From assembly GCA_030524705.1 (NCBI GenBank), contig JAUNGD010000021.1, positions 1 to 46,924 on the forward strand: a stretch of 46,924 bases of DNA. Direction: 5' to 3'. Both the position numbers and the translations under genes were made by a program. Every line of letters begins with the position of its first letter. Positions within the stretch are counted from its first letter, which is position 1. Below are positions 41,322 to 46,924 of the stretch, piece after piece. The notes beneath the pieces are model-generated. The model saw only the letters and a program-made list of their open reading frames with translations, was not told the origin of the DNA and ran no database searches. The DNA comes from Lachnospiraceae bacterium (GTDB lineage: Bacteria; Bacillota; Clostridia; Lachnospirales; Lachnospiraceae).

Positions 41322-41392
41322 ACTACCAAATGTCGTAGAATATATTGACATGTGAAAAAAATAACAAACATTTGCGGAAAGGGGAACTGATA

Positions 41393-41815
41393 ATGCATTT
41401 GATTCACGATGAAAACGGCAATCTCTGTCCTCATACCCATGATCACGAGCATCCGCATACCCATACGTACGAGCATACGCATGTTCATAGTCATGAACAT
41501 GGTCATGAGGAAGAGCATAATCACACCCATGAGCATGAGCATAGCCCTGAGAACAGCGGATGTGAGAAAGGGTGCAGCGGCTGCGGCGGTCATACTCATT
41601 CTCATGAGGCGCCCCAGGGTGACAAGATGACAGCTCTTCTGGATTACATGCTCAAGCACAATGAGCATCATGCGGCCGAGCTGGATCAGGTAGCTGAAAA
41701 GCTTCGGGCTGAAGGAAAGCCGGCTGCTGCGGAGCAGATCAAGAAAGCGGTGGATGAGTTCCAGAAGGGAAATCTGTATCTGAGCCTTGCACTCTCAATG
41801 GTAAAAGAAGATTAG
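41393..41815 (+). CDS. Histidine-rich putative nickel-binding protein (CooJ-like by position)
   Basis: 140 residues. 22 histidines fall in the first 71 residues as HxH runs (THDHEH, HTHVHSHEHGH, HEHEH), with a Cys patch GCEKGCSGCGG (56-66). The C-terminal half (about 79-140) is a predicted two-helix domain (LLDYMLKHNEHHAAELDQVAEKLRAEG). Start ATG 41393 follows AAAGGGG. First gene before cooT, cooC and the Ni-enzyme gene acsA; Rhodospirillum CooJ is an analogous His-rich Ni protein but with the His tract at the C-terminus. Role as Ni store or donor is inference; Zn binding is equally possible chemically. Confidence 0.8.
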   Translation: MHLIHDENGNLCPHTHDHEHPHTHTYEHTHVHSHEHGHEEEHNHTHEHEHSPENSGCEKGCSGCGGHTHSHEAPQGDKMTALLDYMLKHNEHHAAELDQVAEKLRAEGKPAAAEQIKKAVDEFQKGNLYLSLALSMVKED

Positions 41816-42060: not shown

Positions 42061-42831
42061 ATGGCGCATGTAATAGCGATTGCAGGAAAAGGCGGAGTGG
42101 GCAAGACCACACTTTCCGGTATGCTGATTCAGATGATGTGCCAGACGGGCAAGCGCCCGATTCTGGCTGTGGATGCGGATGCAAATTCCAATCTGAACGA
42201 GGTGCTGGGCGTAGATGTGGAGATGACCCTCGGCGAGGTGCGGGAGCAGATTGAGCGCGCTGAGAACAGCGCGAAGAATCCGATCCCTGCCAGCATGTCG
42301 AAGGCGGACTATGCTGAGATTATGTTTCAGAGATGTCTGAACGAGGATGACGATTTTGACCTCCTCGTTATGGGCAGAACCCAGGGAAAGGGCTGCTACT
42401 GCTTTGTAAACGGACTGCTTCAGGCGCAGATGCAGAAGCTGCTTCCGAACTACAAATACATGGTAGTGGACAATGAGGCAGGCATGGAGCATATCAGCCG
42501 TGGTATCCTGCCGAAGGTGGATACAATCATTCTGGTCAGTGATTGTTCCAGAAGAGGTGTTCAGGCAGCGGGAAGGATTGCGGAGCTGGTAAAAGAGTGC
42601 GATATGAACCCCAAAACGATGGGACTGATCGTAAACCGCGCTCCGGGCGGCGTGCTGAATCAGGGTACGATGGAAGAGATTGAAAATCAGGGGCTTACCC
42701 TTCTCGGCGTTGTACCCCATGACGACCAGGTGTATGAGTATGACTGCGACGGAAAGCCTACAGTCAATCTCCCGGAGGATTCACCGGTACGCCTGACACT
42801 GAAGGACATCATTAGCAAGCTTTCTTTATAA
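42061..42831 (+). CDS. cooC: CooC-type nickel-inserting ATPase 1
   Basis: 256 residues. MinD-family ATPase with deviant Walker A GKGGVGKTT (9-17), switch VDADAN (37-42), and the metal-binding Cys112-x-Cys114 pair in GCYCFVN, which sits at the CooC dimer interface. Inserts Ni into the C-cluster of CODH with ATP. Directly upstream of acsA, so it is the most likely CODH maturase. Confidence 0.93.
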   Translation: MAHVIAIAGKGGVGKTTLSGMLIQMMCQTGKRPILAVDADANSNLNEVLGVDVEMTLGEVREQIERAENSAKNPIPASMSKADYAEIMFQRCLNEDDDFDLLVMGRTQGKGCYCFVNGLLQAQMQKLLPNYKYMVVDNEAGMEHISRGILPKVDTIILVSDCSRRGVQAAGRIAELVKECDMNPKTMGLIVNRAPGGVLNQGTMEEIENQGLTLLGVVPHDDQVYEYDCDGKPTVNLPEDSPVRLTLKDIISKLSL

Positions 42832-42915: not shown

Positions 42916-44808
42916 ATGGGAGATTTTAAATTAACGACGGTAGAAGAGTTTGAAGCGGCAACAAACCGACTTCTTGAAACCGGCGCAAAAGTTGGGGCGG
43001 ACGCATGGCAGTACCGTGTGAAAAACCAGACCCCTCATTGTAAATTTGGTGAGCAGGGTATCTGCTGCCGAATCTGTTCTATGGGACCTTGCCGTATTAC
43101 TCCGAAGGCTCCGAGAGGAATCTGCGGATGTGACGCTCACGGTATCGTTGGACGTAACTATCTGAAGTTTACAGCGGGCGGAGCTGCTACGCATTCAGAT
43201 CATGGCCGTGAGATCTGCCATACTCTGTACTGCACGTCTCCGGACGGAGCTTACAAGGTAAAAGATCCTGAGAAGCTGATCCGTATTGCAAAGGAGTGGG
43301 GCGTAGAAACTGAAGGAAAAGATATCTACGATCTGGCTCACGAGGTTGCTTTCCTCGGTATGAGCGAGTATGGTAAGGTATTTGGTACACAGAATTTCCT
43401 GAAAAGAGCACCGCAGCATACGCAGGAGATCTGGGAGAGAGAGGAAATCGCACCGCGGGCAATCGACCGTGAGGTTTCCTGTTCCTTACATATGTCCCAT
43501 ATGGGATGTTCTTCCAAGCCAGAAGCGCTGATTCGTCAGGCTCTTCGTGCTGGTCTGTCCGACGGCTGGGGCGGCTCCATGGCAGGTACAGAGTTCTCAG
43601 ACGTATTGTTCGGAACTCCGAAGCCCATTGAGACAGAGGCAAACCTCGGCGTTATGGTTGCTGAGAATGTAAATATCGTTGTTCACGGACATGACCCGTC
43701 ACTGTCCGAGATGATCTGCGAGTATGCAGATGATCCTGAGATGATCGCATATGCAAAATCCATGGGAGCAAAGGGTATCACCGTATCCGGCGTATGTTGT
43801 ACATCAAATGAAGTTGCAATGCGCCGCGGTATTCCGATGGCAGGTAACTTCCTGCAGCAGGAGAACGTTGTACTGACCGGTGCCTGTGAGGCCATCGTTG
43901 TAGACGTACAGTGTATCTTCCCGGCACTTGGACCTCTTTCCAAATGCTTCCATACAAAATTCGTTACAACCTCTCCGATCGCACAGATGCCGGATTCCGA
44001 GTTTATTCGTTTCTCACCGGAAAATGCAGCGGAGAATGCAAAGACGATCGTAAAAATGGCGATCGAGAACTTCAAGAACAGAAAGCCGGAGCTGGTTCAT
44101 ATCCCGGATATGAAGCAGAAGGCTACAGTAGGCTACTCTGTTGAGGCGATTGTTAAGACTCTGGACGGCGTTACGAACTCTCAGGTAGACGTAACAGGAA
44201 CAACAAAGCCGCTCATCGAGTGTATTACATCCGGTGTTATCCGCGGTGCCGTAGCTATGGTTGGCTGCAACAACCCGAAGATCCGCCCGGATACCGCTCA
44301 CATTGAGCTGATGAAAAAGCTGATCGCAAATGATATCATCGTTGTCGCTTCCGGATGCTCCGCACAGGCTGCAGCTAAGGCTGGTCTGATGGACAAGGCT
44401 GCAAAGGATCTTTGCGGCGCCGGTCTGAAGAGAGTATGTGAGCTGGCAGATATCCCGCCGGTACTTCATATGGGTTCCTGCGTAGATATCAGCCGTATGA
44501 TGATTCTTGTTGCCGAGCTGGCAAAGGATTCCGGCCTGAACATTTCTCAGCTTCCGGTTGTAGGATGTGCTCCTGAGTGGATGTCAGAGAAGGCTGTTTC
44601 CATCGGTAACTACGTAGTTGCCACCGGTATTGATACATTCCTCGGCGTTGATCCGTATGTAAGCGGTTCTTCAGAGGTTGCAGGACTTTTGACCGAAGGT
44701 ATCAAGGACTGGGTAGAGGCATCTTATACCGTAGAAAAGGATATTGATAAGCTTGTTGATCTGATGATCGAAAGAATCGAAGAGAAACGAGAGGCAGTTG
44801 GAATCTAA
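42916..44808 (+). CDS. acsA: Nickel-dependent CO dehydrogenase catalytic subunit (AcsA/CooS)
   Basis: 630 residues. Reduces CO2 to CO for acetyl-CoA synthase. D-cluster Cys42 and Cys50; B-cluster Cys51, Cys54, Cys59 and Cys72 (or 70); C-cluster ligands His259, Cys294/295, Cys333, Cys451, Cys481 and Cys522; SEKAVSIGN carries the Lys of the proton path. Every ligand known from Carboxydothermus CooS is present. Strong AAGGAGG site and highly expressed codon use. Length 630 is the shorter clostridial AcsA form. Confidence 0.97.
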   Translation: MGDFKLTTVEEFEAATNRLLETGAKVGADAWQYRVKNQTPHCKFGEQGICCRICSMGPCRITPKAPRGICGCDAHGIVGRNYLKFTAGGAATHSDHGREICHTLYCTSPDGAYKVKDPEKLIRIAKEWGVETEGKDIYDLAHEVAFLGMSEYGKVFGTQNFLKRAPQHTQEIWEREEIAPRAIDREVSCSLHMSHMGCSSKPEALIRQALRAGLSDGWGGSMAGTEFSDVLFGTPKPIETEANLGVMVAENVNIVVHGHDPSLSEMICEYADDPEMIAYAKSMGAKGITVSGVCCTSNEVAMRRGIPMAGNFLQQENVVLTGACEAIVVDVQCIFPALGPLSKCFHTKFVTTSPIAQMPDSEFIRFSPENAAENAKTIVKMAIENFKNRKPELVHIPDMKQKATVGYSVEAIVKTLDGVTNSQVDVTGTTKPLIECITSGVIRGAVAMVGCNNPKIRPDTAHIELMKKLIANDIIVVASGCSAQAAAKAGLMDKAAKDLCGAGLKRVCELADIPPVLHMGSCVDISRMMILVAELAKDSGLNISQLPVVGCAPEWMSEKAVSIGNYVVATGIDTFLGVDPYVSGSSEVAGLLTEGIKDWVEASYTVEKDIDKLVDLMIERIEEKREAVGI

Positions 44809-44850: not shown

Positions 44851-45621
44851 ATGAAGATTGCTATTACCGGTAAGGGCGGAGTGGGCAAAACCACCTTCGC
44901 CGCTACACTGGCAAGATTATACGCAGAGGAAGGCCGCCCGGTCCTGGCAGCGGACGTGGATCCGGATGCAAATCTGGGACTGGCACTTGGCTTTTCGGAG
45001 GAAGAACTGGAGCAAATCGTACCAATTACAAAAATGCGCAAATTGATCGAGGAACGTACCGGGGCAAGTGCGGACAACAGAATTTACCGCATCAATCCCA
45101 AAGTCAGCGACATTCCGGACACCTACGGACGGGTGTGCAACGGAGTGCGTCTGCTGGTGCTGGGGACCGTGGATACGGCCGGCAGCGGCTGTGTCTGCCC
45201 GGAGCACGTTATGCTCAAGCGCATCATCAACAATCTGGTGCTGCACAGGGAGGATGTAGTGATCCTTGATATGGAGGCCGGTCTGGAGCATCTGGGACGC
45301 GGCACCACATCCGGGATGGATCAGTTTGTTGTGGTGATTGAGCCCGGGGCAAGAAGTATCCAGACGTATCAGAATGTCAAGCGTCTGGCAGCTGAGCTCG
45401 GTGTGAAGCAGGTGCGTGTGGTTGGTAATAAAGTAAGGGACGAAAAGGATGAAGAATTCATTCGTTCACGGATTCCTGCGGAGGATCTCCTGGGATTTGT
45501 TCATTATAATTCTGAAGTTATTGACGCGGATAGAAATGGCTCCTCACCGTATGATTTCAGCAAATCAGCAGTCGAAGAAATCAGACGTATAAAGGAATTG
45601 ATTGATAAGTCGGAGGCGTGA
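44851..45621 (+). CDS. cooC: CooC-type nickel-inserting ATPase 2
   Basis: 256 residues. Same family as the first CooC but clearly divergent: Walker A GKGGVGKTT (8-15), VDPDANLG (36-42), Cys114-x-Cys116 in GCVCPEH, and ERTGASADNRIYRINP insertion. Placed between acsA and the acsB side of the cluster, so it may serve ACS (AcsF-like role) while the first serves CODH. GAGGTGA ribosome site. Confidence 0.92.
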   Translation: MKIAITGKGGVGKTTFAATLARLYAEEGRPVLAADVDPDANLGLALGFSEEELEQIVPITKMRKLIEERTGASADNRIYRINPKVSDIPDTYGRVCNGVRLLVLGTVDTAGSGCVCPEHVMLKRIINNLVLHREDVVILDMEAGLEHLGRGTTSGMDQFVVVIEPGARSIQTYQNVKRLAAELGVKQVRVVGNKVRDEKDEEFIRSRIPAEDLLGFVHYNSEVIDADRNGSSPYDFSKSAVEEIRRIKELIDKSEA

Positions 45622-45666
45622 GCCAACGATTTACACAATAAAAAAATTCAGAAAGAGGCGACTAAA

Positions 45667-46359
45667 ATGAGCGAATCAGGATTACCAAAGCTGGAGGTCA
45701 GCGACATTATCCATGCGCTGGATTCAGTGTGTAGTTCACAGGTAGATACCGCCGGATCTACCAAACCATTACTGGAATGTATTACTTCCGGTGTTTTACG
45801 TGGAGCGGTTGTCATGCTGGGATGTGACGATTCCACGGTCAGGGACACAGAGGAATATGTGGCTCTGATGAAGAAATTGATTGAAAATGACATTGTACTG
45901 CTGGCAATCGGTTATCCGGTTACTGTGGCGCAGAATGCCGGGCTTCTGAATCCGGAAGCAAAGGATCTGTGCGGCGCGGGTCTGAAGAGGGTCTGCGAGC
46001 TGGCAGAGATCCCGCCGGTGCTCCCCCTGGGAGGACTGGAAAATATTAACAATGTTATTACGATCGCCCAGGCGCTTTCAGCAGATTCCGGCCTGGCAGT
46101 TCCCGCATTGCCGGTAGTTGGATGTGATGCGGCGGGTGTATCTGCCCAGGCAGTGGAGCTTGGCAATGCGTTTACTGGTCTTGGAGTAGATACCTTTATC
46201 GGTATTATGCCGTATGAGGGTGCTCTCGAGGACGTGATTGCAGCCAGCGGTTTGAAGGACGGTGCGGAGGCAAAGCATACCGTTTCTTCAGATCTGAATG
46301 AATTATGCGGTGCGATGATCGCAGACATTGAGAAAAAGCGGGCATCAATAGCAATCTAA
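45667..46359 (+). CDS. Orphan CODH C-terminal-domain protein (degenerate C-cluster ligands)
   Basis: 230 residues, aligning along its whole length with AcsA from about residue 408 to the end (shared: TKPLLECITSGVLRGAV, DLCGAGLKRVCELAE IPPVL, LPVVGC). The N-terminal half (B- and D-clusters, His259, Cys295, Cys333) is absent. Of the three C-terminal C-cluster cysteines, one is kept (Cys53), the second is Tyr83 (GYPV for GCSA) and the third Leu124 (GGLEN for GSCVD); the Lys of SEKAV is Gln (SAQAV). So it cannot hold a normal C-cluster. The frame is intact with an AAGAGG ribosome site, and it lies 33 bases before acsB, so it looks like a maintained protein and not a decaying fragment. Possible scaffold or partner of CODH/ACS. 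Confidence 0.88.
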   Translation: MSESGLPKLEVSDIIHALDSVCSSQVDTAGSTKPLLECITSGVLRGAVVMLGCDDSTVRDTEEYVALMKKLIENDIVLLAIGYPVTVAQNAGLLNPEAKDLCGAGLKRVCELAEIPPVLPLGGLENINNVITIAQALSADSGLAVPALPVVGCDAAGVSAQAVELGNAFTGLGVDTFIGIMPYEGALEDVIAASGLKDGAEAKHTVSSDLNELCGAMIADIEKKRASIAI

Positions 46360-46392: not shown

Positions 46393-46924
46393 GTGACTTT
46401 ATTTGATGTTGTATTTAGCGGAAATGATACCGTATACGGACTGACAGAAGGAGCAATCGATGCAGCCATCGCTCAGTATGGTGCTGACAAGGCTGTTTCC
46501 TTCCCGGATACCGCATACAGCCTGCCGTGCTATTACGGCGTAACAGGAACCAAGGTAAACAACCTCGGTGAATTAAAAGAAGCTCTTGGCGTAGTAAAGA
46601 CTCTTATGACAAGAGAAAAGAGACTGAACGACGTATTTATGTCCGGTGTTGCTACCGCTCTCTGTGCAGAGTTCATCGAAGTTCTGAAATATATTGATGG
46701 TGCAGCTCCGTACGCTGAGCCGTGCTACGGACATCTCGGTGATGCGATCATCCGTGAGCTGGGTGTTCCGCTTGTTACAGGAGATATCCCGGGCGTTGCA
46801 GTTATCCTTGGCGCAGCTCCGACTGCTGAAGAGGGCGTTGCTCTCGTAAAGAGCTATCAGGCACAGGGTATCCTGGTTACTCTGGTGGGTGGAATCATCG
46901 ATCAGTGTGAAGAGCTGGGATATA
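46393..46924 (+). CDS. acsB: CO-methylating acetyl-CoA synthase AcsB (3' part outside the window)
   Basis: 177 codons visible from GTG 46393, which follows GGAGG at 7 bases. Condenses CO, a methyl group from the corrinoid protein and CoA. The sequence matches the AcsB N-terminal domain that docks on CODH: YGADKAVSFPDTAYSLPCYYGVTG, GHLGDAIIRELGVPLVTGDIPGVAVILGAAP. The A-cluster motifs lie beyond the window. N-terminus is shorter than in Moorella AcsB. Confidence 0.93.
   Translation, partial: MTLFDVVFSGNDTVYGLTEGAIDAAIAQYGADKAVSFPDTAYSLPCYYGVTGTKVNNLGELKEALGVVKTLMTREKRLNDVFMSGVATALCAEFIEVLKYIDGAAPYAEPCYGHLGDAIIRELGVPLVTGDIPGVAVILGAAPTAEEGVALVKSYQAQGILVTLVGGIIDQCEELGY

Follow-up and report, generated by a model that had tools for sequence, protein, structure and literature searches.

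Described CODH/ACS systems and a free-standing domain in a Lachnospiraceae operon

The bacterial carbon monoxide dehydrogenase/acetyl-CoA synthase complex (CODH/ACS) has been described as a CODH dimer with two ACS subunits (PMC12289521). Here, we describe mini-AcsA, the product of a gene inserted in such an operon at positions 45667 to 46359 of contig JAUNGD010000021.1 from a Lachnospiraceae bacterium (assembly GCA_030524705.1); the whole stretch analysed, 46,924 nucleotides, is called the window. In the Clostridium autoethanogenum complex, CODH binds ACS by helix alphaA and the loop preceding it, at the start of Rossmann fold 2, and ACS contacts CODH through its A1 domain (PMC11474084). In Methanosarcina thermophila, it is Rossmann fold 2 that packs directly against A3, and ACS A1 may stem from a duplicated CODH Rossmann fold 2 (PMC11474084). 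One survey reports that, Peptostreptococcales aside, its human-gut genera carry cooS, cooC and acsB consecutively, with no inserted gene (PMC11338639).

Mini-AcsA shares a domain with the AcsA-type CODH of the C. autoethanogenum class, including its long loop and helix; it is nested in Lachnospiraceae-type AcsA, and the best fold match of its predicted model is 6ytt, from the C. autoethanogenum complex. However, it stands alone, without the N-terminal and middle domains and hence without a B or D cluster, and its C-cluster ligands and catalytic lysine are lost. Bacterial ACS A1 likewise has a Rossmann fold, and the predicted mini-AcsA model superposes on 6yua_A, but A1 belongs to the ACS chain and includes a helical CODH_A_N part (PF18537, found in the AcsB of locus L005) that mini-AcsA lacks, and the sequence similarity between them is marginal. 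The epsilon subunit (CdhB) of the archaeal acetyl-CoA decarbonylase/synthase is also a small CODH partner with a single Rossmann fold, but mini-AcsA has no epsilon-family Pfam match. The epsilon subunit is not known to be a duplicated CODH domain. CooS-V and other altered-ligand CODHs resemble mini-AcsA in having a CODH scaffold with a lost ligand, but the CooS-V type is full-length, has one ligand exchanged and still binds an Fe-S-O hybrid cluster (PMC9311411). Similarly, the mini-CooS of T. carboxydivorans is small and CODH-like, but is reported with a complete metal-cluster motif, which mini-AcsA has lost (PMC8776680).

No description of a protein like mini-AcsA was found in the literature searched. 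The filters of three CODH surveys would have dropped it, since they remove sequences under 550 residues or with deletions at cluster and catalytic positions (PMC6344411), sequences under 400 residues (PMC8776680) or any cluster substitution (PMC11338639).

Mini-AcsA lacks the C-cluster ligands and catalytic lysine of CODH

The gene at 45667-46359 encodes an entire Rossmann fold 2 on its own, corresponding to the C-terminal domain of an AcsA-type CODH. Its open reading frame (ORF) is uninterrupted and flanked by a CooC-type ATPase gene (cooC2, 44851-45621) and acsB (from 46393). The features of the gene and protein, all on the forward strand, are as follows.

45655..45658, forward: GAGG Shine-Dalgarno-like site, present in 24/24 loci with the mini-AcsA gene
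45667..46359, forward: mini-AcsA, 230 residues, a free-standing CODH Rossmann fold 2 with C-cluster ligands lost, as judged from the ORF, Pfam, alignments and a structure model
45733..45807, forward: residues 23-47, loop and helix before strand 1, putative ACS-binding element by homology, 19/25 identical to the genus AcsA consensus
45823..45825, forward: C53, position of the first C-terminal C-cluster cysteine, Gly or Thr in 22/22 other full-length orthologs
45913..45915, forward: Y83, position of the second C-terminal C-cluster cysteine, motif AIGYPV, invariant in 23/23
45958..46023, forward: residues 98-119, near-verbatim patch AKDLCGAGLKRVCELAEIPPVL, 21/22 identical to the genus AcsA consensus
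46036..46038, forward: L124, position of the third C-terminal C-cluster cysteine, motif PLGGLEN, invariant in 23/23
46147..46149, forward: Q161, position of the catalytic lysine (SEKA), invariant in 23/23

A Pfam scan gave a single match at E up to 0.001, PF03063 (Prismane/CO dehydrogenase; E 4e-25, 88.8 bits against a gathering cut-off of 27), which spans profile positions 345-511 of 513 and thus only the last third. Against NCBIfam TIGR01702 (Ni-CODH catalytic subunit), mini-AcsA scored 91.1 bits over profile positions 416-575 of 621, well under the equivalog cut-off of 478, and is therefore neither a full-length member nor an equivalog of that family. Only the last domain is present, and the N-terminal domain with the B and D clusters is absent.

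The three C-terminal cysteines of CODH are ligands of the C-cluster, and the lysine is its acid-base catalyst. This agrees with PMC6344411, and Lys556 touches the oxidised C-cluster in Desulfovibrio vulgaris CODH (PMC6168284). In our alignment to the D. vulgaris chain 6vwy, mini-AcsA C53, Y83, L124 and Q161 correspond to C448, C478, C519 and K556. From the window's AcsA to mini-AcsA, GCSA becomes GYPV, GSC becomes GGL and SEKAV becomes SAQAV, exactly as a first-pass annotation of this DNA had read them, and we found that these two cysteines and the lysine are replaced by invariant residues in 23/23 full-length mini-AcsA copies. The same annotation counted two of three cysteines as replaced, which is right for the window copy but understates the family: C53 is retained in the window copy only and lost in 22/23, so that the family as a whole is without all three cysteines. 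Ni-CODHs are recognised by these three cysteines and the lysine, none of which is a feature of the mini-AcsA family. Among CODH frames of at least 450 residues in the loci fetched, where some genomes occur twice, the three cysteines are kept in 101/101 and the lysine in 97/101, with Gln in two and two frames that end before this position. Since mini-AcsA has neither the C-cluster ligands nor the electron-transfer domain, it cannot work as a CODH alone.

Mini-AcsA is conserved in place but patchy within its genus

A contig search returned 33 loci, comprising 22 full-length mini-AcsA copies (77-87% identity), one copy cut by a contig end (L025) and 10 AcsA-only matches. The gene order acsA, cooC2, mini-AcsA, acsB was found in 22/22 full-length ortholog loci, although the contigs of L004 and L021 begin inside acsA and do not extend to cooC1; cooC1 is present in the other 20. 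With the window included, acsB is next to the mini-AcsA gene in 23/23 full-length cases. The proposal of an intact, in-operon pseudoenzyme between cooC2 and acsB is thus upheld, and the possibility that it occurs in one genome only is countered by 22 other records with an ortholog in the corresponding position. Together with the PF03063 match, these orthologs rule out a chance reading frame. By title, the 22 records belong to Lachnospiraceae, Marvinbryantia or Clostridiales.

Within the window's genus, the short protein was present in 22/47 genomes, with a cut copy in one more (G012) and a match of any kind in 37/47. Where the junction was readable in members without the gene, cooC2 is followed directly by acsB (11/11); this count leaves out G031, G024 and G027, where contigs end, G012 with its cut copy, and the 10 genomes without a match. 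When mapped onto an AcsA tree, presence of the gene defines a 21-row clade (Shimodaira-Hasegawa-like approximate likelihood ratio test [SH-aLRT] 97) plus the window, and two changes suffice to explain its distribution when G031 (L082) is coded as lacking, though its junction is unreadable. Outside the genus, no free-standing copies were found in 397 family, 392 order, 391 class and 398 phylum genomes, samples which overlap, with the phylum scan covering the matches listed and with hits in frames longer than one domain or beginning at contig ends not opened. In a plasmid collection, the single match was to a 2.6 Mb Acetoanaerobium record (38% identity, no annotated gene under the match; record not opened), and viral contigs gave no match to the two peptide patterns used.

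Several short frames were considered as mini-AcsA copies and rejected. The acsA of L115 lies in two frames (416 and 259 residues) with its cysteines kept, L116 is apparently a frame-broken CooS with its cysteines kept, and L118 has no CODH frame. Contig ends truncate the frames in L117 and L119, the frame in L120 crosses a gap of N, and that in L121 starts inside acsA at a contig end and is followed by cooC2 and acsB. The two-frame acsA of L115 (2241-4194) adjoins acsB, and represents either a frameshift or a split gene.

Mini-AcsA derives from Lachnospiraceae-type AcsA and is under purifying selection

To place the origin of mini-AcsA, we built a CooS-rooted tree that took in 8/23 mini-AcsA copies and 44 CODHs. 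The eight copies form one clade (SH-aLRT 100, stem 1.63) inside a 30-row fork, and the other 22 rows of this fork are Lachnospiraceae-type AcsA (SH-aLRT 88). This nesting points to a duplication of the 3' part of acsA, followed by fast change and then constraint. A topology constrained to hold mini-AcsA together with the rows labelled Lachnospiraceae AcsA was not rejected (approximately unbiased test, p-AU 0.20), with the list including L028-L030, which fall elsewhere, and a tree without an outgroup did not place the origin.

The mini-AcsA gene is under purifying selection. The ratio of nonsynonymous to synonymous substitution rates (dN/dS) by the Nei-Gojobori method (NG86) had a median of 0.060 over 206 pairs, the distant ones being saturated at synonymous sites, and of 0.036 over 18 close pairs; the corresponding values for the AcsA C-terminal domain were 0.053 and 0.010. 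Neutral evolution, which would have spoken against a functional protein, is therefore not what we see (dN/dS about 0.04-0.06). A pseudogene or assembly artefact is ruled out by these values and by the 22 further full-length copies without a stop. Separately, L005 and L006 have zero dS and dN in mini-AcsA and 99% identical AcsB, with a dS of 0.57 in the acsA C-terminal domain, a pattern suggesting that lineages have swapped a segment of this operon.

The reported ACS-docking element is retained and the cluster side is altered

The last 232 residues of the window's AcsA (399-630) align with mini-AcsA at 47% identity, and mini-AcsA matches the genus AcsA consensus at 107/230 positions (19/23 mini-AcsA copies and 14 AcsA domains compared). 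The earlier description of a domain core kept almost verbatim is thus true of parts such as residues 98-119, but not of the domain as a whole. Divergence is pronounced at the former cluster: of the 36 positions that lie up to 4 residues away from any of the four ligand or catalytic sites, 7/36 are identical, and they hold 16 of the 32 fixed differences. On the other hand, the putative docking element is identical at 19/25 positions compared to 88/205 elsewhere (Fisher p 0.0016), with the element's limits picked after reading PMC11474084. In this element, we would assign alphaA to residues 33-40 of the model, the helix ahead of strand 1. The docking-loop segment is 46-47 residues long in 90/90 AcsA-type CODH frames, for 77 of which the fetched DNA includes acsB, and 36-41 residues long in 11/11 CooS-type frames, defined as under 45% identity to the window AcsA with no acsB in the fetched DNA, and mini-AcsA has the long, AcsA-type form.

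Gene conversion was considered as the source of the near-verbatim patch and rejected, since there is no synonymous-site signal over 23 genomes: third positions in residues 99-116 match the genome's own acsA at 0.551 and those of other genomes at 0.537. In the window pair alone, 12/17 third positions agree in the patch compared to 50/108 over the whole domain, and recent local gene conversion may have occurred in this genome. The five genomes L003, L004 and L007-L009 share an A-to-D change within this patch (CGAG to CGDG), carried by mini-AcsA and AcsA alike.

Mini-AcsA as a candidate ACS-docking subunit

Our preferred reading, held tentatively and at somewhat less than even probability, is that mini-AcsA is a non-catalytic subunit docking on ACS or on CODH/ACS. 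The 3' third of a Lachnospiraceae-type acsA was duplicated and inserted between cooC2 and acsB, as the tree and gene order show, to yield a stand-alone Rossmann fold 2. In favour of a docking role we count the constant position beside acsB, the purifying selection, the conserved GAGG site, the retained long loop and near-verbatim patch, the fold match to 6ytt, the A1 divergence described below and the A-to-D change shared by mini-AcsA and AcsA in five genomes. The protein would dock on the ACS A1 domain as a non-catalytic stand-in for CODH, by a contact predicted from C. autoethanogenum, and could then hold or stabilise ACS, for example during assembly and nickel loading. Alternatively, it may cover the mouth of the carbon monoxide (CO) tunnel on ACS copies without bound CODH, or shift the proportion of CODH to ACS within the complex. 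The invariant replacements in AIGYPV, in PLGGLEN and around Q161 may form a new contact or plug surface. The first-pass annotation had offered capping, scaffolding, a heteromer, maturation and CO channelling as roles; we narrow these to docking on ACS, given that mini-AcsA retains the element with which CODH is reported to hold ACS, while the suggested tie to CooC2 comes down to adjacency, as CooC2 is present with or without mini-AcsA.

In a bolder form, the duplicated Rossmann fold 2 would be a third structural subunit of a bacterial CODH/ACS that docks on ACS, gates or guards the CO tunnel and lets A1 drift in some lineages, replaying the proposed origin of A1; we regard this as unlikely. 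If true, a conserved extra subunit made from the complex's own CODH domain would add a component to the Wood-Ljungdahl machinery of gut acetogens. It would also provide a natural tool for uncoupling docking on ACS from the production of CO, and a living model in which to test how ACS A1 could have arisen.

We compared each A1 domain with ten outgroup loci. A1 identity was 66-72% in 12/23 mini-bearing genomes and 81-85% in the other 11, compared to 83-85% in 11 mini-lacking genomes, so that strongly diverged A1 domains occur in 12/23 mini-bearing and 0/11 mini-lacking genomes (Fisher p 0.003 by genome counts). AcsA identity to the outgroups was 0.851-0.897 with and 0.848-0.889 without mini-AcsA, and for CooC2 the two groups likewise span similar values. 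Over the final part of ACS, identity is 96% within the mini-bearing and within the mini-lacking group. At AcsB site 656, a V to I difference separates the groups almost consistently and was judged uninformative. We take the A1 divergence as suggestive only. Elsewhere in the wider set, a Lachnospiraceae metagenome-assembled genome carries a tandem acsB pair (L027:7416-11884) with a long A1 branch on both copies, and L024:2140-5077 has acsA followed directly by acsB, with no cooC2 between.

A number of observations weigh against a docking role. The 12 genomes with diverged A1 fall in two clades, so their support amounts to about two events, and the divergence is absent in the window and ten other mini-bearing genomes. 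In the wider tree, the six terminal A1 branches of greatest length belong to L071, both L027 copies and L028-L030, all without the mini-AcsA gene, and thus A1 also speeds up in its absence. The docking-site residues are transferred by homology from one sentence of PMC11474084, the lowest-confidence parts of the model include the docking loop (predicted local distance difference test, pLDDT, under 50 at residues 21-31), and the best-kept part, patch 98-119, lies outside the docking element as reported. In close pairs, mini-AcsA is less constrained than the AcsA C-terminal domain, and the distant pairs of that comparison suffer from the saturation given above. Finally, since the gene is absent in sister genomes, it is not required for CODH/ACS.

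Other readings start from the same domain copy. Mini-AcsA could replace or shadow one AcsA Rossmann fold 2 in a heteromer, or act like a chaperone in CODH folding; it is a diverged copy of the AcsA domain, and patch 98-119 could contact other CODH domains. However, the cluster-side sites, which would be expected to meet AcsA Rossmann fold 1, have diverged most, and AcsA itself is equally close to the outgroups with and without mini-AcsA, leaving this reading unlikely. A role as a maturation factor with the CooC2 ATPase, loading nickel into ACS or CODH, would suit a protein encoded directly after cooC2 in an operon that has a second CooC-type gene and an upstream His-rich ORF. Yet cooC2 is present without mini-AcsA in 11/11 readable genomes, CooC2 divergence is alike in both groups, and the C-cluster ligands are lost, and we consider such a role quite unlikely. 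It is more doubtful still that mini-AcsA clamps ACS in the manner of A1, covering the A-cluster domain A3 and gating CO instead of or beside A1, as Rossmann fold 2 packs in methanogens: the mini-adjacent ACS retains its A1 part (PF18537 in L005), a profile comparison of the mini-AcsA domain with A1 was weak (probability 1.4%), A1 speeds up without the gene too, and the retained surface is the CODH docking surface.

Two further explanations would remove mini-AcsA from the complex altogether. New invariant motifs occupy the former cluster site, as they might in a Rossmann protein with a new small-molecule or regulatory function outside CODH/ACS assembly, but every copy found sits in an acs operon and stretches specific to the AcsA group are retained, which makes this very unlikely. 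A decaying, functionless duplicate would fit the patchy occurrence in the genus (22/47 genomes and one partial copy), but is scarcely credible given the dN/dS of 0.04-0.06 and 23 copies without a stop.

Neighbouring genes of the acs operon

The operon genes around mini-AcsA in the window, all on the forward strand, are listed below; the two P-loop ATPases, labelled CbiA by Pfam, are ones we take to belong to the CooC family.

41345-41815, forward: His-rich ORF, 156 residues, no Pfam match, upstream of cooC1
42061..42831, forward: cooC1, presumed CooC-type P-loop ATPase (Pfam gives CbiA)
42916..44808, forward: acsA, full-length ACS-linked-type CODH with three cysteines and Lys, paralogue of mini-AcsA
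44851..45621, forward: presumed CooC-type P-loop ATPase (Pfam gives CbiA), named cooC2 in the first-pass annotation
46393..46924, forward: acsB, first 177 codons, then the contig end

The His-rich ORF may encode a protein that handles nickel for the acs operon. By a threshold-based count, it is found at the same place in 19/23 other mini-bearing loci, and it also occurs in L027, L074 and L077, which are without the mini-AcsA gene.
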